Positions 13,417 to 29,267 of a stretch of DNA of 64,000 nucleotides are shown here, in pieces (position 1 is the first letter of the stretch; every line of letters begins with the position of its first letter). This stretch comes from Cyclobacteriaceae bacterium (GTDB taxonomy: Bacteria; Bacteroidota; Bacteroidia; Cytophagales; Cyclobacteriaceae): assembly GCA_019638395.1 (NCBI GenBank), contig JAHBTX010000001.1, forward strand, positions 620,001 to 684,000. The letters are read 5' to 3'. Under the pieces are notes generated by a model. The model ran no database searches. It was not told the origin of the DNA and saw only the letters and a list, made by a program, of their open reading frames with translations. A program made the position numbers and the translations under genes.

Positions 13417-14424
13417 TCAATCCTGAATTAAATTATAGGCTGCACGCAGGCGTTTAATTAACCGGCTCGACTCATCAAAGTCGAGAGTCTGTTGTCCATC
13501 ACTAAAAGCTTCTTCCGGCTTCTGGTGGGTCTCGTAAATTATTCCATCGGCTCCAGCCACAGTTGCGGCTAACGCAACCTGAGGAACATATTCGCGAATG
13601 CCTATTCCATGCGAAGGATCGGCTACTACCGGCAAATGCGACTTCGCTTTTAATATCGGAATTGCATTTATATCCATCGTATTACGGCTTGCTTTTTCAT
13701 AGGTACGAATACCGCGTTCGCACAAAATCAGTTTTTCATTCCCTGCGGAGAATACATATTCCGCTGATGAAAGTAACTCATCAATCGTACCGGAGATACC
13801 TCGCTTAATCATAACGGGCTTATCCACTTTGCCTAACTCGTCCAGTAGATTAAAGTTCTGCGTATTGCGCGCACCTACCTGAAAAACATCTACATACGGC
13901 AGCATGGATTCGATCTGGCTTACCTGCATCACCTCACTGATTATCTTGATACCATTCTTCCGTGCTAGTTCATACCACAATTTCAATCCATCAATTCCAA
14001 GTCCACGAAACGCATAGGGCGAACTGCGCGGCTTGAACACACCACCGCGCATAATGGGTACTTGGTTAGCTACCAGGTGTTGAATGGTTTGTTCGATCTG
14101 TTTTTCATTTTCAATCGAACACGGACCAGCCATAATCGCCAAACCATTACCTCCAATGGTAACACCATCGCCCAAATCAATAACGGTTGGTGCAACCTTC
14201 CATTTCTTTGAAACCAACTTGTATTCGTCTGGCACGCGATGGATATCGGCAATGCCAGACAAGTGGCCAATGGTGCGAATATCAAATTCCTTTTTTCCAA
14301 TCGCCACCAGGTATTTACTGCGCTGTGTTGCAACCGGCATCGACTTATAACCCAAAGCCGTTATTTTTTCGATAATCGATTGCTGTTGATTTGAATCAAC
14401 ATTCGGTTTTAATTCAATAATCAT
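13417..14424 (-). CDS. aroF: 3-deoxy-7-phosphoheptulonate synthase, type I-beta
   Basis: The 335-aa enzyme makes DAHP from phosphoenolpyruvate and erythrose 4-phosphate, the first step of the shikimate pathway. An N-terminal regulatory ACT/ferredoxin-like domain (about residues 1-70) precedes the TIM barrel with AGPCSIEN, RGGVFKPRSSPYAFRGLG and VADPSHGIG. It is the last gene of the trp operon and overlaps trpA by four bases, so supply of chorismate is controlled together with tryptophan synthesis. Confidence 0.94.
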   Translation of the reverse strand: MIIELKPNVDSNQQQSIIEKITALGYKSMPVATQRSKYLVAIGKKEFDIRTIGHLSGIADIHRVPDEYKLVSKKWKVAPTVIDLGDGVTIGGNGLAIMAGPCSIENEKQIEQTIQHLVANQVPIMRGGVFKPRSSPYAFRGLGIDGLKLWYELARKNGIKIISEVMQVSQIESMLPYVDVFQVGARNTQNFNLLDELGKVDKPVMIKRGISGTIDELLSSAEYVFSAGNEKLILCERGIRTYEKASRNTMDINAIPILKAKSHLPVVADPSHGIGIREYVPQVALAATVAGADGIIYETHQKPEEAFSDGQQTLDFDESSRLIKRLRAAYNLIQD

Positions 14425-15200
14425 TTGGATGTGGTTAAAGAAACTACAAACTGCTTCACATCAGCTTCCAGGTTTTTACTTTCGCTGATTTGCTGAATAA
14501 ATGAACTCCCTACAATGGCACCTGCTCCGTATGTACAAGCTTGCGAGTATGTGGTGTAATTTGAAATCCCAAAACCAATCAGGAATGGATTTTTCAAATT
14601 ATACGATTTAAGCCTGCTAAAATAAGCGAGCTGTTCCGGTGAAAATTCATTTTTGGCACCGGTGGTGCTGGATGCTGATACCGCATAAACAAAACCCGAA
14701 CTGATGGCATCTATCTTCCGGATGCGCGCTTCACTTGTGGTAGGCGAGATCAGAAAAGAAACACTTAAGTTTAGCGAAGTGGTTAACGATTCGTATTGTT
14801 CAAATTCATCCAATGGTAAATCCGGTAAAATCAAACCATCTACTCCGGCCTTCGCAGCATCTTTAAAAAAATTCTCAAAGCCATACTGCATCACAGGATT
14901 CAGATAACCCATCAGAATAATGGGCATTTTTACTTTGGTGCGCAGAGCGGCTACCTGCTTTAACAAAAGTGCAACCGACATTCCATTATCAAGTGCCTTT
15001 TTATTGCTTGCCTGAATGGTTGGGCCATCGGCTACCGGATCCGAAAACGGAATGCCAATTTCAATTATATCGGCACCGGCTGCTTCAAGCGCTATGGCAA
15101 TCTTTTCTGTGTCGTCAAGATTGGGGAAGCCGGCTGTATAAAAAACTGAGAGCACCGGCTTCTTTGCCTTCGACAACAGTTCTGTAATTTTATTTTTCAT
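14421..15200 (-). CDS. trpA: Tryptophan synthase alpha chain
   Basis: The 259-aa TIM barrel cleaves indole-3-glycerol phosphate to indole. The catalytic Glu lies in DIIEIGIPFSDPVADGPT and the catalytic Asp in DGLILPDLPLDE. The C-terminal phosphate-binding loop GFGIS and AIVGSSF are present. It is separated from trpB by 85 bp that contain a large hairpin, the only sizeable gap inside the operon after trpE. Confidence 0.97.
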   Translation of the reverse strand: MKNKITELLSKAKKPVLSVFYTAGFPNLDDTEKIAIALEAAGADIIEIGIPFSDPVADGPTIQASNKKALDNGMSVALLLKQVAALRTKVKMPIILMGYLNPVMQYGFENFFKDAAKAGVDGLILPDLPLDEFEQYESLTTSLNLSVSFLISPTTSEARIRKIDAISSGFVYAVSASSTTGAKNEFSPEQLAYFSRLKSYNLKNPFLIGFGISNYTTYSQACTYGAGAIVGSSFIQQISESKNLEADVKQFVVSLTTSK

Positions 15201-15230
15201 TTGAACTCTTTTACTTCAATATTTTTATGA

Positions 15231-15276
15231 AGGCGTCAGACCGGTTCTAACCTGGAATGAAACCGGTCAGACGCCT
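15231..15276 (-). repeat. REP-like hairpin between trpB and trpA
   Basis: The arms AGGCGTCAGACCGGTT (15231-15246) and AACCGGTCAGACGCCT (15261-15276) are complementary at 15 of 16 positions, with a 14-base loop. This is the strongest hairpin in the window. No T-run follows on the trp strand, so it is not a standard intrinsic terminator. Candidates are a dispersed palindromic (REP-type) element or an RNA-stability stem that lowers trpA and aroF expression. Confidence 0.7.
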
Positions 15277-15285
15277 GTTATAACC

Positions 15286-16476
15286 TCAATATTTTCCCCA
15301 ACGGATATACGTTTCCAAATCCTTATCGCCTCTACCCGATAGATTCACCACTACCACATCTTCAGTTGTTAATTCAAGTTTTGAAAGCGCTGCAATGGCG
15401 TGTGCCGATTCGATGGCTGGAATGATTCCTTCGGTACGAGCTAACTCAATACCAGCATTCATGGCCTCATCATCTGTTACGCTCACAAACTGCACACGAC
15501 CCGTTTCAAATAAGTGCGCATGCAATGGCCCAATGCCTGGATAATCTAACCCGGCCGAAATGGAATAAGGTTCAATCACCTGACCATCGGTGGTTTGCAT
15601 CAACAATGTTTTACTGCCATGCAATACTCCCGGTTTACCCAATGCAGTTGTAGCAGCCGACTCACCACTATCAACACCCAGACCTGCAGCCTCTACTCCC
15701 ACCAGGTTAACATGTTCTTCATTGAGATAATGATAGAAGGCACCAGCTGCATTGCTACCACCACCCACACACGCCACCACATAATCAGGGTTGGGTTGAC
15801 CAATTTCAGTCTGCAATTGCTTTTTTATTTCTTCGCTTATTACAGATTGAAACAATGTAACCATGTGTGGATAAGGATGCGGCCCTACAACCGAACCGAT
15901 GATGTAATGGGTATCGGTTGGATGGTTAATCCAATGGCGCATCGCTTCGTTAGTAGCATCCTTCAACGTCATGTTACCCGATAGCGCAGGTATAACCTGC
16001 GTACCCAGAATACGCATACGCTCTACGTTAGGCCGCTGCCGTTCCATATCTAACTTGCCCATGTACACCATACACTCCATACCCATTAACGCACATACGG
16101 TTGCTGTAGCAACACCGTGTTGACCGGCACCAGTCTCGGCAATAATTTTTTGCTTGCCCAATCGCTTCGCCAATAAAATCTGACCGATAGTATTGTTGAT
16201 CTTATGAGCACCTGTATGGCAAAGGTCTTCCCGTTTGAGATAAACATTTGCCTTATATTTTTCGGAAAGGCGGGCAGCGTGATATAGCGGTGTAGGCCGG
16301 CCCACGTATTGGCGCAACAAGTTAAGAAACTCTTTTTGAAATTCCGGTTGTTGAATTATCTCCAGGTATTGCAAGCGTAATTCCTCCACATTCGGATACA
16401 ACATTTCCGGAATATAAGCTCCACCAAAGTTACCATAGTAACCGCGCGCATCTACTTCGTATTGCATGACTTTCAT
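15286..16476 (-). CDS. trpB: Tryptophan synthase beta chain
   Basis: The 396-aa PLP enzyme joins indole and serine. The PLP lysine is in [15 protein letters not shown], with the phosphate loop in [12 protein letters not shown] and the substrate loop in [10 protein letters not shown]. Length and motifs are of the TrpB1 type, which partners TrpA. It begins two bases after the trpF stop. Confidence 0.98.
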
Positions 16477-16478
16477 GT

Positions 16479-17117
16479 TTAAGTCCCGATTTTATTTAAT
16501 GATTCAAATAAGCTCTTTATTTTATCAACACTTTTTATTGCCGGTTGTTCTTCCACACCGCTATTAATGTCGATACCAAAAAACATTTCGTGATGAAAAT
16601 TTTTCAAGTCCTGAATGTTAGCCTCCGAAATTCCGCCACTTAAAAAGAACGGAGTGTTACCAACATACTTTTTCAGCAAGTTCCAATCGAACCGAATGGC
16701 ATTGCCACCATAATGTTTGCCTTTGGTATCGAACAGAAAAAAATCTACGATGTTTTCATATTCAGAAGTAAAGCTGAAATCAAAAGTTTCATCCACCCGA
16801 AATACCTTAATCACACCTACCCTACTTTGTAACTCCTGAGCATAAGCCACCGATTCATCACCGTGCAATTGCACGAAATCCAACTGGTGCTGTTCAATCA
16901 ATTGATAAACCCGATCCAGAGCCTGGTTTACAAAAACCCCTACCCGTTTTATATTGGTTGGCAGATCATTTGGAATACGGAATGAATCGCCCACAAACCG
17001 GGGTGAAGCTTTATAAAAAATAAACCCCATGTAATCTGGTTGTAATTGCCCCACAGCTCGCACATTATGTGCATCCCGCATGCCGCAAACCTTCCACACA
17101 TTGGGGGTTATCTTCAT
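16479..17117 (-). CDS. trpF: Phosphoribosylanthranilate isomerase
   Basis: The 212-aa TIM barrel converts phosphoribosylanthranilate to CdRP. The N-terminal catalytic cysteine is in [11 protein letters not shown], and the general-acid Asp region is [24 protein letters not shown] forms the phosphate loop. It overlaps trpC by four bases. Confidence 0.95.
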
Positions 17118-17920
17118 AAAGTCTTACGCTCTAACTTCTTTAGGTTATCAATAAACTCATGGCAGGCTTGCTCCGGCCGACTGTGTTGCATAAAATTTTG
17201 TCCCATTAAAAATCCACGATAACCATTCTTCTTTAACTCGATTATCGTTTGTGGATTTTCAATACCACTTTCTGAAACCTTCACAAACTCGTTTGGTATA
17301 AACGATGCCAGTTGTGTTGATAAAGTAATGTCCGTTACAAAGGTTTTGAGATTCCGATTATTAACTCCTATCAGATCAGCTGGCGCGTTCAGATTTGCTT
17401 CCAATTCTTCGCGATTATGAATTTCCAACAACACTTCCAGGTTTAAGGTGTGTGCAAAAGTTGCCAACTCTTTTAAACGGGCAGGCTCAAGTGCTGCGGC
17501 AATCAACAAGATTGCATCGGCACCGATTGACTTAGCTTCAATGATCTGATATTCATCAACCGTAAAGTCCTTTCTTAAAATCGGGCAGAAATTAAACTTG
17601 CGTGCTGTAATCAAATCTTCACTGCTGCCTCCAAAATACTTTGAATCGGTAAGCACCGAAAGTGCCGAAGCTCCGGCCTGCATGTAGCCGATTGAAGTAC
17701 GTTCTACTGATACGTATGGATTAATCACACCTTTGGAAGGCGACTTGCGTTTTACTTCAGCAATTATACCCGACTTATCTGCGCGTGTTACATACTTCTT
17801 CAACGAAACCGTTGGCCCTTCAAAGTAAATGCTCTTCTCCAATAACTTTACAGGATACAAAGCCTTTCGATCTTCAACCTCCTTATACTTGCTTGCAATA
17901 ATTTCTGTCAGAATATCCAT
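17114..17920 (-). CDS. trpC: Indole-3-glycerol phosphate synthase
   Basis: The 268-aa TIM barrel closes the indole ring from CdRP. Signatures are IAEVKRKSPSKGVI (catalytic Lys and Glu), LRKDFTVDEYQI, LIGVNNRNLKTF and SESGIENP. It is a stand-alone enzyme, not fused to TrpF as in enterobacteria. It starts just past the end of trpD. Confidence 0.97.
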   Translation of the reverse strand: MDILTEIIASKYKEVEDRKALYPVKLLEKSIYFEGPTVSLKKYVTRADKSGIIAEVKRKSPSKGVINPYVSVERTSIGYMQAGASALSVLTDSKYFGGSSEDLITARKFNFCPILRKDFTVDEYQIIEAKSIGADAILLIAAALEPARLKELATFAHTLNLEVLLEIHNREELEANLNAPADLIGVNNRNLKTFVTDITLSTQLASFIPNEFVKVSESGIENPQTIIELKKNGYRGFLMGQNFMQHSRPEQACHEFIDNLKKLERKTL

Positions 17921-17921
17921 G

Positions 17922-18908
17922 TTACTTCTCCATTAAATTTTTAAAAGCCTGTAATGCCTTGCCCGATTGTAATGCTTCTGTAGCCCTATTCACTGCCTGT
18001 GGAAGTCCGCCAGATATATCGGCACAATACAAAGCCATTGCTGCATTGGCAATTACTGCCGATTGTTGTGGAACCGTACCTTTATTCTCTAACACATTCA
18101 TAAAAATCCGGGCAGATTCTTCCACCGTTGCACCACCTCTTATTTCTTCATACTTAACTTTTGGTAACCCTAAATCGGTTGGTTGTGCCAACCGTTCGCC
18201 ACCATTATAAAAATACTTGAATGCTCCGGTTAGCGAAACCTCATCGTATCCGTCCAGCGAATGCAAGATCACAAAGTCTTTATCGCTTTGCTGATACAAG
18301 TAACCATACTGGCGGGCCAACTCCAGACTAAACACGCCTACCAATTGCCGTGTAGGAAACGCAGGATTAACCATAGGCCCCAGCATGTTGAAAAAAGTTT
18401 TTACACCTAGTTCTTTGCGGATGGGGGCAACGTTTTTCATAGCGGGATGAAACAACGGGGCGTGCATGAAACATATATTGCTTCGATCTAAACTGCGTCT
18501 TAATTCATCGAGATCGTTCGTGAATTTATATCCAAAATATTCGAGCAGGTTGGAAGAACCACAAGCAGAAGATACACCGTAGTTACCATGCTTGGCAACC
18601 GGTTGGCCTGCAGCCGCTACCACAAACGATGAAAGTGTAGAAAGATTGATTGTATTTTTTCCATCGCCACCGGTACCACACACATCCATTACGGGTTGCT
18701 CGAAACGGGCCGGTACACATAGTTCCAACATCGCATCGCGAAAGCCCTGCAATTCCTCAACGGTGATGCTGCGCATCATATAAACCGTCATAAAGGCTGC
18801 GGTTTGGCTTAAGTTAAACTTACCCTGAGCGAGTTCTACTAAAACCCGATGTGCGGTTTCCTTCGTTAAGCTTCTATGTTCAATCAGTTCAGTTAAAATC
18901 TGTTTCAT
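17922..18908 (-). CDS. trpD: Anthranilate phosphoribosyltransferase
   Basis: The 328-aa enzyme transfers phosphoribose from PRPP to anthranilate. The PRPP site is CGTGGDGKNTINLST. The anthranilate region is KHGNYGVSSACGS, and RKELGVKTFFNMLGPMVNP is typical of the family. It is stand-alone, not fused to TrpG. Confidence 0.97.
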   Translation of the reverse strand: MKQILTELIEHRSLTKETAHRVLVELAQGKFNLSQTAAFMTVYMMRSITVEELQGFRDAMLELCVPARFEQPVMDVCGTGGDGKNTINLSTLSSFVVAAAGQPVAKHGNYGVSSACGSSNLLEYFGYKFTNDLDELRRSLDRSNICFMHAPLFHPAMKNVAPIRKELGVKTFFNMLGPMVNPAFPTRQLVGVFSLELARQYGYLYQQSDKDFVILHSLDGYDEVSLTGAFKYFYNGGERLAQPTDLGLPKVKYEEIRGGATVEESARIFMNVLENKGTVPQQSAVIANAAMALYCADISGGLPQAVNRATEALQSGKALQAFKNLMEK

Positions 18909-18919
18909 TGTTAATCAGA

Positions 18920-19492
18920 TTAGCGGGTGTAACTCAACCAGTTCTCAATTATGCGGGGTCCTTCCGGAGTCATTATCGATTCCGGGTGAAACTGTAAACC
19001 TTTCACATCAAATTCGACATGGCGCAAACCCATGATCAAACCCGCTTCATTGCGGGCGGTTACTTTTATAGCTCCATTCATCGATTCCGGAACCACTGCC
19101 CACGAGTGATAATGTGTAGCTTGAAATTTTGTATTCACACCTTTGAACAAATATTCTGCCTGATCTTCGATTGTTGCCGTTGATGTAACACCATGCAACA
19201 CCTGCGGAATATTAAACAGCGATGCGCCATATACTTCCGCTATACCTTGATGCCCGAGGCAAATTCCTAAAATACTTTTGGTGGAGCCATAGGTTTTGAT
19301 AACCGCTTTCATAATGCCGGCTTCATCAGGAATGCCCGGCCCTGGTGAAAGTAAAATCTTGTCATAAGCTGCTACCGACTCAACTGGTATTTTATCGTTC
19401 CGATAAACATCGGGTGAATAGCCTAACACCCGAATGATGTGCACCAGGTTGTAGGTAAAAGAATCGTAATTATCGAGTACTAAAATCTTCAT
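18920..19492 (-). CDS. trpG: Anthranilate synthase component II (glutamine amidotransferase)
   Basis: The 190-aa class I amidotransferase supplies ammonia to TrpE. The nucleophile is in ILGICLGHQGIAE and the His/Glu pair in GLQFHPESI. ATG at 19492 (MKILVLDNYDSFTYN) is the standard N-terminus; a TTG at 19504 would add four residues and overlap trpE. In some bacteria one such subunit also serves PabB; no pab gene is here. Confidence 0.96.
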   Translation of the reverse strand: MKILVLDNYDSFTYNLVHIIRVLGYSPDVYRNDKIPVESVAAYDKILLSPGPGIPDEAGIMKAVIKTYGSTKSILGICLGHQGIAEVYGASLFNIPQVLHGVTSTATIEDQAEYLFKGVNTKFQATHYHSWAVVPESMNGAIKVTARNEAGLIMGLRHVEFDVKGLQFHPESIMTPEGPRIIENWLSYTR

Positions 19493-19500
19493 AACTATTT

Positions 19501-20889
19501 TCAAATTTTTTCAGCTAACAACACCGCCTTGCGCAAGGCTTCCAGCTTATTATTTACTTCCTGTAATTCACTCTCCGCTTTTGATTTTGATACTACACCC
19601 GCACCCGCCTGGTAAATCAATTGATTGTCTTTACTTAAAAATGTTCGAATCATAATCGCGTGGTTGAAAGAATTATCGAATCCTAAGAAACCAATAGCAC
19701 CACCGTAAAAACTCCGGCTCACATTTTCATATTGATCGATTAACTTCATGGCCATGTGTTTGGGTGCTCCTGAAAGTGTACCTGCTGGAAATGTATCCGC
19801 AGCCATTTGAACAACTGATGAATCGGTGCGCAGCGTACCCGTAACTTTTGATACCAGATGTATTACGTGCGAGTAATATTGAATTTCTTTGAATACTTCC
19901 ACATGTACCGACTCTGCATTGCGACTCATATCATTACGGGCCAAATCAACCAACATGATATGCTCGGCATTTTCTTTTTCATCGGAAGACAGGCGCTCCG
20001 CTAACTGGGCATCTTCCTGGTCGTTACCCGATCTTCGAAACGTACCGGCTATCGGATAAATGTGAGCCTTTCCATTTTTAATTTGGATTTGCGCTTCTGG
20101 CGAGGAACCAAAAAGTTTAAAATTTCCGTAATCGAAATAGAATAAATAAGGTGATGGATTGATGGAACGTAATGCCCGATAGACATTAAACTCATCGCCC
20201 TTAAAGCCGGTAACAAACCTGCGCGAAAGTACAATCTGAAATACATCGCCCCGAAAACAATGTTGTTTTCCCTGGTTTATTATTTCAAGAAATTGATCGT
20301 CTGTATAGTTCGATTGCTCTTCGTGCGTGCGGGTGAACCGAAATGTAGTTACCCGGTTATTGTTGATTAATTGTTCCAGCCGTGGAAGGGTGCTTTCATT
20401 TTGATTTGATTCCGGTTGATGTTCAAATAAAGTCATTTCATTATGAAAATGATCAACCACAATAACGTATCGGTAAAGTGAATACATCATATCCGGAATC
20501 TGTGGCCCGGCTGATTGCAGCTTTACATCTTCAAAGTATTGCACCGCATTATAAGCTATATAGCCAAACAACCCGGCATGTGGATAACGCGTTACTTTTT
20601 CTACCTGAAAAGAATTCTTAAACGCTTCAAATACTGAGATCAACTGCTTACCCTCAAGCCCCACTTGGCGGGTTGTTGCATCCAGCATGGTAATCTCTGC
20701 CGTTCCGTTGGCTGCTTTAAACGTGGCAATGGGTTCGCAACAGATAAAAGACAAACTGTTTTCGTTACCGTGATAGTCAGAGCTTTCCAACAATACACTG
20801 GCTGCAAAAACATCGCGCAGTTTCAGGTAAATGTTTACCGGTGTGATGGTATCGGCCAGTAGCTGCCGGGTAAAAGTTTTAAATCTCAT
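19501..20889 (-). CDS. trpE: Anthranilate synthase component I
   Basis: The enzyme is 462 aa from the ATG at 20889 (MRFKTFTRQLLAD). It converts chorismate to anthranilate with TrpG. The feedback motif VLLESSD (LLES) near residue 37 implies inhibition by tryptophan. The chorismate-binding core shows FQIVLSRRF, AGTLSGAPKHMAM and AGAGVVSKS. The longer open frame up to 20943 runs through the attenuator hairpin and does not look coding. First structural gene of the trp operon, 78 bp past the leader peptide stop. Confidence 0.96.
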   Translation of the reverse strand: MRFKTFTRQLLADTITPVNIYLKLRDVFAASVLLESSDYHGNENSLSFICCEPIATFKAANGTAEITMLDATTRQVGLEGKQLISVFEAFKNSFQVEKVTRYPHAGLFGYIAYNAVQYFEDVKLQSAGPQIPDMMYSLYRYVIVVDHFHNEMTLFEHQPESNQNESTLPRLEQLINNNRVTTFRFTRTHEEQSNYTDDQFLEIINQGKQHCFRGDVFQIVLSRRFVTGFKGDEFNVYRALRSINPSPYLFYFDYGNFKLFGSSPEAQIQIKNGKAHIYPIAGTFRRSGNDQEDAQLAERLSSDEKENAEHIMLVDLARNDMSRNAESVHVEVFKEIQYYSHVIHLVSKVTGTLRTDSSVVQMAADTFPAGTLSGAPKHMAMKLIDQYENVSRSFYGGAIGFLGFDNSFNHAIMIRTFLSKDNQLIYQAGAGVVSKSKAESELQEVNNKLEALRKAVLLAEKI

Positions 20890-20910
20890 TATTAAGCATT
20901 TAGTAAATAA

Positions 20911-20938
20911 GAAGGCCCACTGTGAACAGCGGGCCTTC
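20911..20938 (-). terminator. trp attenuator: terminator stem with competing antiterminator
   Basis: On the trp strand, GAAGGCCC (20938-20931) pairs with GGGCCTTC (20918-20911), with a further three pairs inside and a tetraloop. A loose U-rich run (TTATTT) follows. The inner segment GCTGTTC (20930-20924) can instead pair over 7 bp (one G-U) with GAGCAGC (20969-20963), which begins in the leader stop codon. GAGCAGC can in turn pair through GCAGC with GCTGC (21006-21002) in the Ala-Ala codons just before the Trp run. This is the 1:2, 2:3, 3:4 logic of an attenuator; pairing was judged by eye. Confidence 0.8.
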
Positions 20939-20967
20939 GGCATATTTTTATTACATAGCAGGGCTGC

Positions 20968-21024
20968 TCACCAATCGAATTTCGACTTGTGCCACCACCA
21001 TGCAGCATGTATCAATTTAATCAT
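20968..21024 (-). CDS. trpL: trp operon leader peptide
   Basis: This is an 18-codon frame, M-I-K-L-I-H-A-A-W-W-W-H-K-S-K-F-D-W, with three consecutive Trp codons and a fourth Trp as the last residue. Trp is the rarest codon class, so four in eighteen next to trpE is far beyond chance. Ribosome stalling at the TGG run when charged tRNA-Trp is scarce would favour the antiterminator. Its ATG lies only three bases after the stop codon of the THX gene, so it is probably translated from a transcript that also carries THX. Confidence 0.87.
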   Translation of the reverse strand: MIKLIHAAWWWHKSKFDW

Positions 21025-21027
21025 TTC

Positions 21028-21201
21028 TTATTCTGCTTTTTTACGACTTGGTTTCTTAGGCTTTGCTTCGGCAGTAGCGACTGTTGTTTTTTTAGAAGCA
21101 ACTCGTTTTAAACGAGCTTTAATTTTTTTACGGTTACGCGTAACACCAAACGAGCCAATGGTACGTTTACCTTTTCGTGATTTTTTATCTCCTCTTCCCA
21201 T
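21028..21201 (-). CDS. 30S ribosomal protein THX
   Basis: This 57-aa, strongly basic protein starts MGRGDKKSRKGKRTIGSFGV, the THX signature (a short N-terminal part that folds into the 30S head), followed by a Lys/Arg/Ala-rich tail. Bacteroidota THX proteins share the G(K/R)GDKK(S/T) start. A GGAGA-like stretch is inside the coding start rather than upstream. It is the first gene of the transcript that runs into the trp leader. Confidence 0.9.
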   Translation of the reverse strand: MGRGDKKSRKGKRTIGSFGVTRNRKKIKARLKRVASKKTTVATAEAKPKKPSRKKAE

Positions 21202-21223
21202 TAAGATTAGTTATTTAGAGCGG

Positions 21224-21254
21224 CAATTATAGTAAACTCTTCACTAAATACAAA
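21224..21254 (-). promoter_or_regulatory. Promoter for THX and the trp operon
   Basis: On the minus strand TTTG (21254-21251), a 19-base spacer and TATAATTG (21231-21224) match the Bacteroidota promoter with one mismatch in the -7 box. The expected transcription start near 21218 leaves about 17 bases before the THX ATG. I see no better box between THX and trpE, which supports one transcript. Confidence 0.55.
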
Positions 21255-21264
21255 TTTTTTAGTG
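21242..21264 (-). terminator. Weak hairpin after the phosphoesterase gene
   Basis: CACTAAA (21242-21248) pairs with TTTAGTG (21258-21264) directly after the stop of the upstream minus-strand gene. The stem is AT-rich and overlaps the -33 box of the THX promoter, so its role as a terminator is uncertain. Confidence 0.3.
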
Positions 21265-21266
21265 TA

Positions 21267-24200
21267 TCAAAACAGAAAGCCCAATCGGACATACGCCATA
21301 ACTGTCTCGCGGGAGCGACCTACTTCTACTGAAAGAGCCGTAAGGTTAAAGGGCGTGAACCAAACTCCACCGCCTACACCCTGATGCCAACGGACTGACT
21401 GCCCATTAAGTGCCGATGGATCCTTGCCGGAAGCATCTTTATACCATACACGACCCAGGTCGTAAAACCCAAGCACTCCATACGATGCCGGAAACAGGTA
21501 AGACTTAAAGCTTCCCAATCGAAATCGCACTTCATTGTTCACGAATAATTCTTTATCGCCATAAAAGCGAGTTTTGCGGTAGCCTCTTAATTCTGTTTTG
21601 CCATCCAGAATCTGCGCCTGATAAAACTGATAGTTGCCGGTATTAATTCCACCACCCACCCGCACAGCATAGGTTACTACTGCCGGAATGCGAAAGGATT
21701 GGTATAATGCCATGGAGGCATTAACTGCGCTAAATGTTCCGTTTGAATTGCCCAGTCCGGTCATCACCTTATTGTTTTGCTGAAAAAATACACCTCGCGT
21801 TGTTAACCGGGGATTATCTCTTCGGTCAAAACCCCAGCTAAAAGTTGCTCCAGCATAATCTTGTTTTACATCAATTATGCGCTCACTGGTTTGTTGTTCA
21901 TATTCCTGAATAAATCTAGGGCCATCTTCGGGATCAGTAGGCTCTTCAACCTGCACATGCTGGTAAACAGCACCTCCTTTTACAAAACCCCAGGCTCCAA
22001 GTTTATGTGCTATCCTAACCTCGGCCAGGTATTCGCGAAAACGCAATCGATAATACTCTATAGCATGATCTAACTCTGAGCCGGGCAAGTCATCAATTGT
22101 TTTGTCGAAAACAGTTTCATTTCCCAAACCAAAAAAATTATTAACAAAGTTGGGTGCCTTTATGTCCACATCCAACTCCAGGTTCCATTTACCCACTACT
22201 TCGGTAAAGCGGCCATCGTATTTAAAATTATACGAGCCGGTGTTGATGGCATAGCTGCCCAAAAACAAATGCTGTGTTTTGTAGGGATTTTTCCTGAATC
22301 CATAATGTGTTGCCAGAAACCCACCGCCAAAAAATAAACCATCATCAATATTAAAATTTCCATACAACAAAGGAGCAACGCGATTGTATTGAAAAGCTCT
22401 CCGGTTATATTCATTTACTTCCGGCATAACAGATGTTTTATTCTTCCATTTGCCTGAGGCCATAATACCAGTAGGTGTATCGTACAACAAATTGCCGGCA
22501 CGGGTATTCGTTTGATTATCTACTGTATCATTTCCATCCCCTCCAATCACGCGCACTTTCATGCCTTTGCTTGCACTACCAGCAATTATAACCTCATCAT
22601 TTCCTCCTAAACCATAAATGCGTATCTCGCTGGTTTCTTCAGCTATAAATAACCGCGAATAGAGCAACGCAGACTTTTCTTTCAGCTTGTTAAGCTTATA
22701 CATATCCACTTGTACATTGTCATTGGGAAAACGATTTATCTCAATTCGCTCGTTTTTATCGGTGCCAACCACATCTACTTCTTTTGCCAGAAATAAATAA
22801 TGTTGTAATGCATATTGTACTAACCGGGCTCTGCGCGATTTCAATTTTCTGATAATCTCCTGGCCATGTAAGGCTGCAATTTCTGCAGGCCATTCGTTTA
22901 TGGAGGCTTCAATCACTTCATCCGTTAACCGGCTGGTCAGGTCTTCGGCTGTTTGTACCCACACTTCTTTTGGTAATGCAGTAAGAAAACTTCTGTCGAA
23001 ATAGCGGGCATTGTACATAAAACCGGGCGGCCAGTTCAGTTCATCATCAAAACCCTGAAACTTAGGCATCGCCCACTTTCGGCTCCAAATCTTAGGAATA
23101 AGCCCTTCATTTACAAAGAACGCTTGATCACGATCGCGTGGTATCGGACGATAAATTCTTGTTTTCTTCTCTTCAAACTCTGCCCACCGCCATTGATCAT
23201 CGTGCCTGTCCCAATCGCCTATCCATAAATCAAAGATGCGGTTGCGCAGCACAAAAGCCTGATCAACAATATTATCATTGTCTTCCAGCAGTTTAGCAAG
23301 CACCTTATCGGTACTTATAATTTTTTTTGCGTTACCGAATGAATTAATAGTATTTGCACTGCCAGCAGGGCGTTCTTCGTACAGCATTAAATGGTTAGCA
23401 AACTTGCTTCTGTAATCGCCCAGGTATGCAGCATCGGGCAGGTAAACTAATTTTGGATTTGTGTGATAGATACCGGCAGCTTTGGCCAATGGCGGAACGA
23501 TTAGTGCCCCATACGGATGTGCAGCCGAAATCTGATCTTGCACTAAATCCAGGGCGAATGTTTTCCTTAAAATTTCGGGTACTGCCTTCTCAGGATATTT
23601 TTCAATTGAACGTAAGGTGTATTCGCGCCCTGCGGAGTCGGCTAACCGTAGCGACAAAGTTTGCATGCCACCTCCTAACTGCAGTATCCGCAGGCCACCG
23701 TGTTCTTTCGTTAAGTCAAGCACGGGCACATCTATTTCGGTAGCCCATTCTGCCCGGTAGTTTTTACCCAGTAACCGCTCGTGGTTTTTCCCAACGGTAT
23801 ATTGCATGCTACCCAAACTCCTTACACTGGCGGCTTGGTTTTGTGTTACCGGAGGTTCTTCTACAACCGCTACTTTACCTCCACGTGTCTTAAATTGTTC
23901 ACCAGCATCGGTATAATAAATAACATCGCTCGAACCATCCGCATAAAACGTAACCTTCACAAAGCCATTTTCTGCTGCTACATACCGGGCATAGCCTTTC
24001 TTTTTTACGGGTGTAGTTTTGCTCCCTGATCCGCTAACGATGAAATGAATACTATCTTTCTGAATATATTGAAGTGCATGATCGTGGCCACTGGCGTAAA
24101 GCGTGCCCGGATATTTCTCCAGCACTTGGCGCATCAGCCGTGCAAACTGTTTATACTGTGGATGTGCCACATCTTGAATATTACCAAATACCTTTCGATA

Positions 24201-29114: not shown

Positions 29115-29122
29115 TAGTTTTG
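29115..29122 (+). promoter_or_regulatory. -7 box of the SRP RNA gene
   Basis: TAGTTTTG is an exact TAnnTTTG match, ending four bases before the first base of the SRP RNA stem, the right distance for a transcription start at about 29127. The -33 region has only a partial match. Confidence 0.6.
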
Positions 29123-29126
29123 CAGC

Positions 29127-29218
29127 GGCAAATCGGCACGACCAGCTCCTGCTGAACTCCCCCAGGGCCGGAAGGCAGCAAGGGTAGGCGGTTGTAGCGG
29201 TGCGATGTTCGGTTTGCC
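29127..29218 (+). ncRNA. ffs: Signal recognition particle RNA, small bacterial type
   Basis: The ends pair (GGCAAATCGG with the reverse arm TTCGGTTTGCC). The domain IV core is recognised at 29151-29186 by its CAGGGCCGGAAGGCAGCAAG stretch, with the GGAA tetraloop and the asymmetric internal loop that binds Ffh. The length of about 92 nt fits the short 4.5S form without an Alu domain. It guides Ffh-FtsY targeting of membrane proteins. End positions are good to a few bases. Confidence 0.93.
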
Positions 29219-29267
29219 ACTTTTACCTTGACATTTTTGCACCATTTAGATTCCTTTATCTTTTACA

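Follow-up and report, generated by a model that had tools for sequence, protein, structure and literature searches.

The trp operon of this Cyclobacteriaceae genome appears to be controlled by a ribosome-mediated attenuator of the enteric kind that lies behind the gene for the 30S ribosomal protein THX and uses the THX promoter, a reading to which we assign a probability of about 0.82. We base it on the anatomy of the locus, its conservation among relatives, compensatory changes in the RNA helices, and the placement of promoter-like sites.

The window, a contig stretch of 64,000 nucleotides, carries all elements of the locus on its minus strand. The THX gene (21028-21201; 57 amino acids), which we predict to head the trp transcript, was identified by profile search (NCBIfam TIGR04560, 38.8 bits, above the curated cut-off of 26). 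Its TAA stop codon (21028-21030) is separated by 3 nt, GAA, from the ATG (at 21024) of an 18-codon leader peptide, MIKLIHAAWWWHKSKFDW (20968-21024), which contains tandem Trp codons (20992-21000), a His codon (20989-20991), and a final Trp codon directly before the TGA stop (20968-20970). A first-pass annotation, made from the DNA alone, had described this leader, with its Trp-Trp-Trp run, its final Trp, and a start three bases past THX, and this description holds. Three alternative helices are predicted. The protector hairpin (1:2; 20962-20999), drawn from relatives with RNAalifold, pairs the Trp and His codons with GUGAgCAGCC and has an apical stem in the intervening codons; strand 2, GTGAGCAGC (20963-20971), contains the leader stop codon and is the 5' side of the antiterminator; strand 3, GCTGTTCAC (20922-20930), is its 3' side and lies inside the intrinsic terminator (3:4; 20911-20938), GAAGGCCCGCTG-TTCA-CAGTGGGCCTTC, whose 12-bp stem is followed by the tail TTATTTACT. 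Next come trpE (19501-20889, ATG at 20889) and trpG, trpD, trpC, trpF, trpB, and trpA in this order (14421-19504), all assigned from open reading frames and family matches. On the other side of THX, a promoter-like site of the Bacteroidota type, TTTG-N19-TATAATTG (21224-21254; halves at 21251-21254 and 21224-21231), lies 22 nt before the THX ATG.

In the mechanism that we propose, scarcity of Trp-tRNA would stall the leader ribosome at the UGG codons and open the protector hairpin; strand 2 would then pair with strand 3 once the latter is made, and RNA polymerase would continue into trpEGDCFBA. When Trp is ample, the ribosome would arrive at the UGA within strand 2 and cover that strand, and the terminator would form. 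The transcript predicted to end there is a THX-leader mRNA, and the attenuator would then double as the terminator of THX. The first-pass annotation had spoken of a link between Trp sensing and ribosomal protein synthesis; this can run in one direction at most, with THX translation affecting trp, because THX precedes the attenuator and Trp attenuation thus cannot control it.

We scanned 80 trpE loci for THX and Trp-rich leaders and searched the window's family for THX, which matched in 93 of 295 genomes; 90 of these regions were read (three weak matches were left out), and the THX motif was absent from 8 of them. The trpE loci and the loci from the family THX matches gave 121 distinct trpE upstream regions. 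In this set, whose family part was drawn by THX similarity, THX lies within 900 nt of trpE in 77 regions. In 65 of these the distance from the THX stop to the leader start is -1 to 20 nt (3 nt in 19 and 6 nt in 12), in 11 it is 37-86 nt, and in the remaining one, L032, no leader was found. Thirty clade members are among the 80 loci found through trpE alone, and THX precedes the leader in all of them, with a broken frame in L002. The latter is a metagenome-assembled genome in which short homopolymer losses, probably assembly errors, apparently break the frame, and we labelled it tight by hand. In a trpE tree (FastTree, 121 rows, built with long-branch warnings and omitting L147 as too short), a branch with support 99 separates 66 tightly linked rows, with no unlinked row among them, from the rest; L132 is placed elsewhere. 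An order and class sample, for which 30 of 63 order matches were read, comprised 55 trpE loci, 3 of them at contig edges. Of the 52 usable loci, 4 have THX, all four from the window's own family, and a Trp-rich short open reading frame, by a loose criterion, precedes trpE in 37.

Subsequent comparisons used 64 tightly linked loci, a set that leaves out L132 (gap of 20 nt, long branch). Across these loci the Trp codons, the stems, and the THX-leader spacing are conserved: 62 leaders carry WWW and the other two GWW, 58 carry WWWH, and a His codon directly follows the Trp run in 60, perhaps because the Trp/His codons pair with strand 2. The congener G294 (L123) had no close trpE match in a genome search and, by eye, keeps THX without a leader and with a plain hairpin behind it. 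THX proteins from regions whose retrieved sequence lacks trpE (L123, L135-L170) are mostly short (36-45 amino acids in 16 of 21); those of the tightly linked clade have 55-66 amino acids. In L132, L138, L146, and L031, trpE is preceded by a pair of successive Trp-rich leaders with a terminator-like hairpin behind each, probable tandem trp attenuators.

Throughout the tightly linked clade, the leader start, taken as the ATG with the smallest gap (the single possible ATG in 49 of the 64 loci), falls between -4 (L171) and +18 nt relative to the THX stop, so that ribosomes leaving THX may well feed the leader. In the congener G289, which the THX search had not picked up, THX and leader overlap by 4 nt (ATGA). 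THX-leader gaps are also tighter than the trpE-trpG gaps of the same loci (medians of 3 versus 10.5 nt, 29 and 28 values, Levene P = 0.003), the trpG starts being those of candidate genes picked by length or motif. A downstream start conserved within a few nucleotides of the upstream stop is the layout of a translationally coupled pair, and we infer, with somewhat better than even confidence, that ribosomes leaving THX supply most of the leader translation. The suggestion of the first-pass annotation that leader translation depends on these ribosomes is plausible. Ribosomes cannot in general enter the leader by reading through the THX stop, since the leader shares the THX frame in 43 of the 64 loci and is out of frame in 21. 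An idea that THX has to lack Trp if starved ribosomes are to reach the leader was rejected: a single Trp occurs in 28 of the 64 linked THX proteins, in every case at residue 14.

The closest competitor keeps the same attenuator and THX promoter but lets the leader initiate on its own, with the tight spacing a product of operon compaction; we regard it as a substantial possibility, short of even odds. Bacteroidota do without Shine-Dalgarno sites, according to an extract of PMC6847099, and the 3' end of THX is A-rich, so the leader could start independently. A comparison of the contexts of the leader, THX, and trpE starts was uninformative as to a need of the leader for coupling; the leaders 37-86 nt from THX probably start in some other way, and 15 of the 64 linked leaders have more than one possible ATG. 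The spacing in the clade, mostly 3 or 6 nt, is also off the 11-14 bp that a reinitiation study gives, in the part available, as the favoured leader-gene distance in Bacteroidetes (Korolev 2016, PMC4833913). Against independent initiation, the gap is held at -4 to +18 nt across the clade, more tightly than the trpE-trpG gap. Supply of the leader by ribosomes from THX might even go further, although we consider this less likely than not: THX would be a runway on which the leader, having lost independent initiation, takes over a ribosome that is finishing THX and is already close behind RNA polymerase. Sensing of charged tRNA-Trp would then be confined to transcripts on which translation of the ribosomal protein gene is under way, and trp expression would be conditional on translation of a ribosomal protein. 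The enteric attenuator is synchronised by a polymerase pause, which such an arrangement could replace.

We searched for the source of the trp transcript with the pattern TTTG-N17..21-TAnnTTTG, counting sites with at least 9 of 10 matches. Of the 64 linked loci, 62 have a site in the 150 nt that precede THX, 60 of them at 16-31 nt before the ATG, and the mean best score there is 8.98, compared with 6.88 for shuffled sequence. No such site was found inside THX or in the THX-to-leader stretches (0 of 64), and one locus of the 64 has a site between terminator and trpE. A sigma-70 scan of 20600-21600 returned 0 sites, and the minus strand of the window has no terminator-like site between THX and the attenuator. 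Among trp leaders unlinked to THX (L002 excluded), 27 of 37, counted without a shuffle control, have a promoter-like site before the leader, 5-20 nt before its ATG in 22 of the 27. Because a promoter-like site precedes THX and the unlinked leaders have sites of their own, THX probably heads the trp transcript in the linked clade. The placement of the nearest upstream open reading frame (at least 90 amino acids; a candidate gene picked by length or motif) on the opposite strand in 31 of the 64 loci points the same way. Both earlier proposals on this point, a sole good promoter upstream of THX and a 30S protein gene at the head of the trp transcript, are thus supported, the first by promoter-like sites and the second as a probability. 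The window's own upstream gene, however, runs in the THX direction and stops 65 nt short of THX, and transcripts begun further up could also extend into THX-trp.

An attenuator that lost its own promoter and rides on that of THX would be the simplest history. A separate promoter within THX or the leader, serving trp while THX is transcribed alone, is improbable: the consensus scans are crude, the composition of THX would by itself predict that it holds no sites (mean score 1.84 versus 2.12 for shuffled sequence), and unlinked leaders do have their own sites, but the counts of 0 and 1 in 64 downstream of the THX start and the lack of a same-strand terminator-like site between THX and the attenuator argue against it. 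In the unlinked leaders (e.g., L034-L039, L048, L049, L066, L179, and L226), the TAnnTTTG box, where found, is mostly a few to 20 nt before the ATG, and their mRNAs may have almost no 5' UTR. A small SRP RNA (RF04183) lies at 29120-29222 of the window, and one lies upstream of THX and trp in L003, L041, L082, and L084.

The terminator stem had been placed at 20911-20938 by the first-pass annotation and is exactly there, with 12 pairs, 8 of them G-C. Its T tail is moderate in the window, and a terminator pattern scan is weak evidence, as it returned 3 terminator-like sites in the kilobase scanned, counting both strands, where shuffled sequence averaged 1.2; the case for an attenuator therefore rests on the relatives. 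Folding of 20890-21030 (minus strand) gave -44.4 kcal/mol (z = -3.5), more stable than all 200 shuffles. The antiterminator had been annotated as a 7-bp pairing of GAGCAGC with GCTGTTC, which is present and extends to 9 bp including one G-U. The third annotated option, GCTGC in the Ala-Ala codons with GCAGC, also exists in the window, but relatives do not preserve its 5' side (they have, e.g., ACTGC or ATAGC), and we ruled it out as the protector; the conserved alternative pairs the Trp/His codons with the same strand 2.

All 64 linked loci have a hairpin with a folding energy of -16.7 kcal/mol or lower, followed by a T-rich tail (counted without a shuffle control), and they split into two classes by their antiterminator strands. 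Class A (34 loci, including the window) pairs strands like UGUGAACAGC with GCUGUUCAC; class B (30 loci) mostly pairs GAUCGG or GAAUCGG with CCGAUC or CCGAUUC. Strands 2 and 3 match within each class: a locus's own duplex averages -17.9 kcal/mol in class A (34) and -18.7 in class B (30), and exchanges within a class stay good (-18.2 in class A, against its own -17.9, and -17.3 in class B), whereas exchanges between classes give -10.7 and -13.8 kcal/mol and shuffling of strand 3 gives -12.5. That the hairpin is merely the terminator of THX, with a Trp-rich reading frame there by chance, can be dismissed, since a strong hairpin behind THX would fit but the conservation of the Trp run and of strands 2 and 3 in 64 loci, in two matching strand classes, would not.

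Compensatory changes were found in both classes. The class A alignment (33 of 34 rows, one identical row dropped) has them in 10 of the 26 pairs predicted by RNAalifold, 4 in the terminator and 6 in the apical stem of the protector, where up to 8 of the 33 sequences break a pair; the pairs between the Trp/His codons and strand 2 hardly vary. Class B (29 of 30 rows; L016, a near copy of L015, dropped) has them in 6 of 19 predicted pairs, in a fold that caught the terminator stem only partly, as the rows are poorly aligned there. For alignment, 3-6 nt had been cut from the 5' end of L054, L059, and L090, and from L090 a further 3 nt at its 3' end. Strand 2 begins 20 nt past the tandem Trp codons in 33 of the 34 class A loci, a distance at which the footprint of a stalled ribosome would leave it clear. 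Class A leaders have 17-20 codons and a stop codon within strand 2; class B leaders have 23-24 codons and run past strand 2. The locus thus combines a short leader with tandem Trp codons before trp genes, an intrinsic terminator with a T tract, and, in the modelled folds, mutually exclusive 1:2, 2:3, and 3:4 helices.

We then modelled the ribosome states by masking. With a ribosome at the Trp codons and strand 4 unmade, all 64 linked loci fold 2:3, and with a ribosome at the stop all 64 form the terminator; both results are expected, because masking removes the competing strand, and are in part circular. In RNA that stops short of strand 3, the Trp/His codons find a downstream partner in all 64, forming the protector hairpin in the window. 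Once all four strands are present, the window's stalled-state RNA folds to the terminator; the switch must therefore depend on the order in which the strands are made, 2:3 forming first. RNA ending at strand 3 forms the antiterminator without a ribosome in 8 of the 64 loci; the window is one of these, and a strict need for leader translation is therefore not predicted for its copy.

Together, these results suggest that each of the 66 compared clade members carries an attenuator downstream of a ribosomal protein gene that is translated. Amino acid attenuators usually open their own transcript; this one seems to have stayed functional with no promoter, and perhaps no ribosome loading, of its own. 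The clade therefore offers a natural test of the synchrony of leader ribosome and RNA polymerase in Bacteroidota, with the prediction that THX translation matters for Trp regulation. Trp attenuation in Bacteroidota is already known; the THX-first arrangement is new, and a literature search of limited reach found no paper joining THX and the trp operon.

In the enteric trp attenuator, Trp codons lie in strand 1, and strands 1:2, 2:3, and 3:4 form the protector, antiterminator, and terminator, respectively. The window follows this scheme but has the stop codon inside strand 2 and a ribosomal protein gene before the leader, and it scores 23.7 bits with the model of the enteric element (RF00513 Trp_leader), below the gathering threshold of 41. 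Within Bacteroidota, the Bacteroid-trp RNA (RF01692), listed in Weinberg 2010 (PMC2864571, in the part available) and placed before the Flavobacterium psychrophilum trp operon by an extract of PMC6414381, is likewise a cis-regulatory trp leader; the window copy differs in scoring below its threshold (28.9 bits against 49, on par with chance families in the same scan). In a scan of 20 loci with RF01692, none of 18 THX-linked loci passed and one of two unlinked loci did (L066, whose leader has its own promoter-like site). The elastinase leader of F. psychrophilum, discussed in the PMC6414381 extract as resembling Trp attenuation, also encodes a Trp-rich short peptide but does not belong to a trp operon, and the extract does not mention THX. 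Finally, leader peptide reinitiation as described in the available part of Korolev 2016 shares the short stop-to-start distance across which ribosomes are passed on; there a leader feeds a gene, whereas here a gene would feed a leader.
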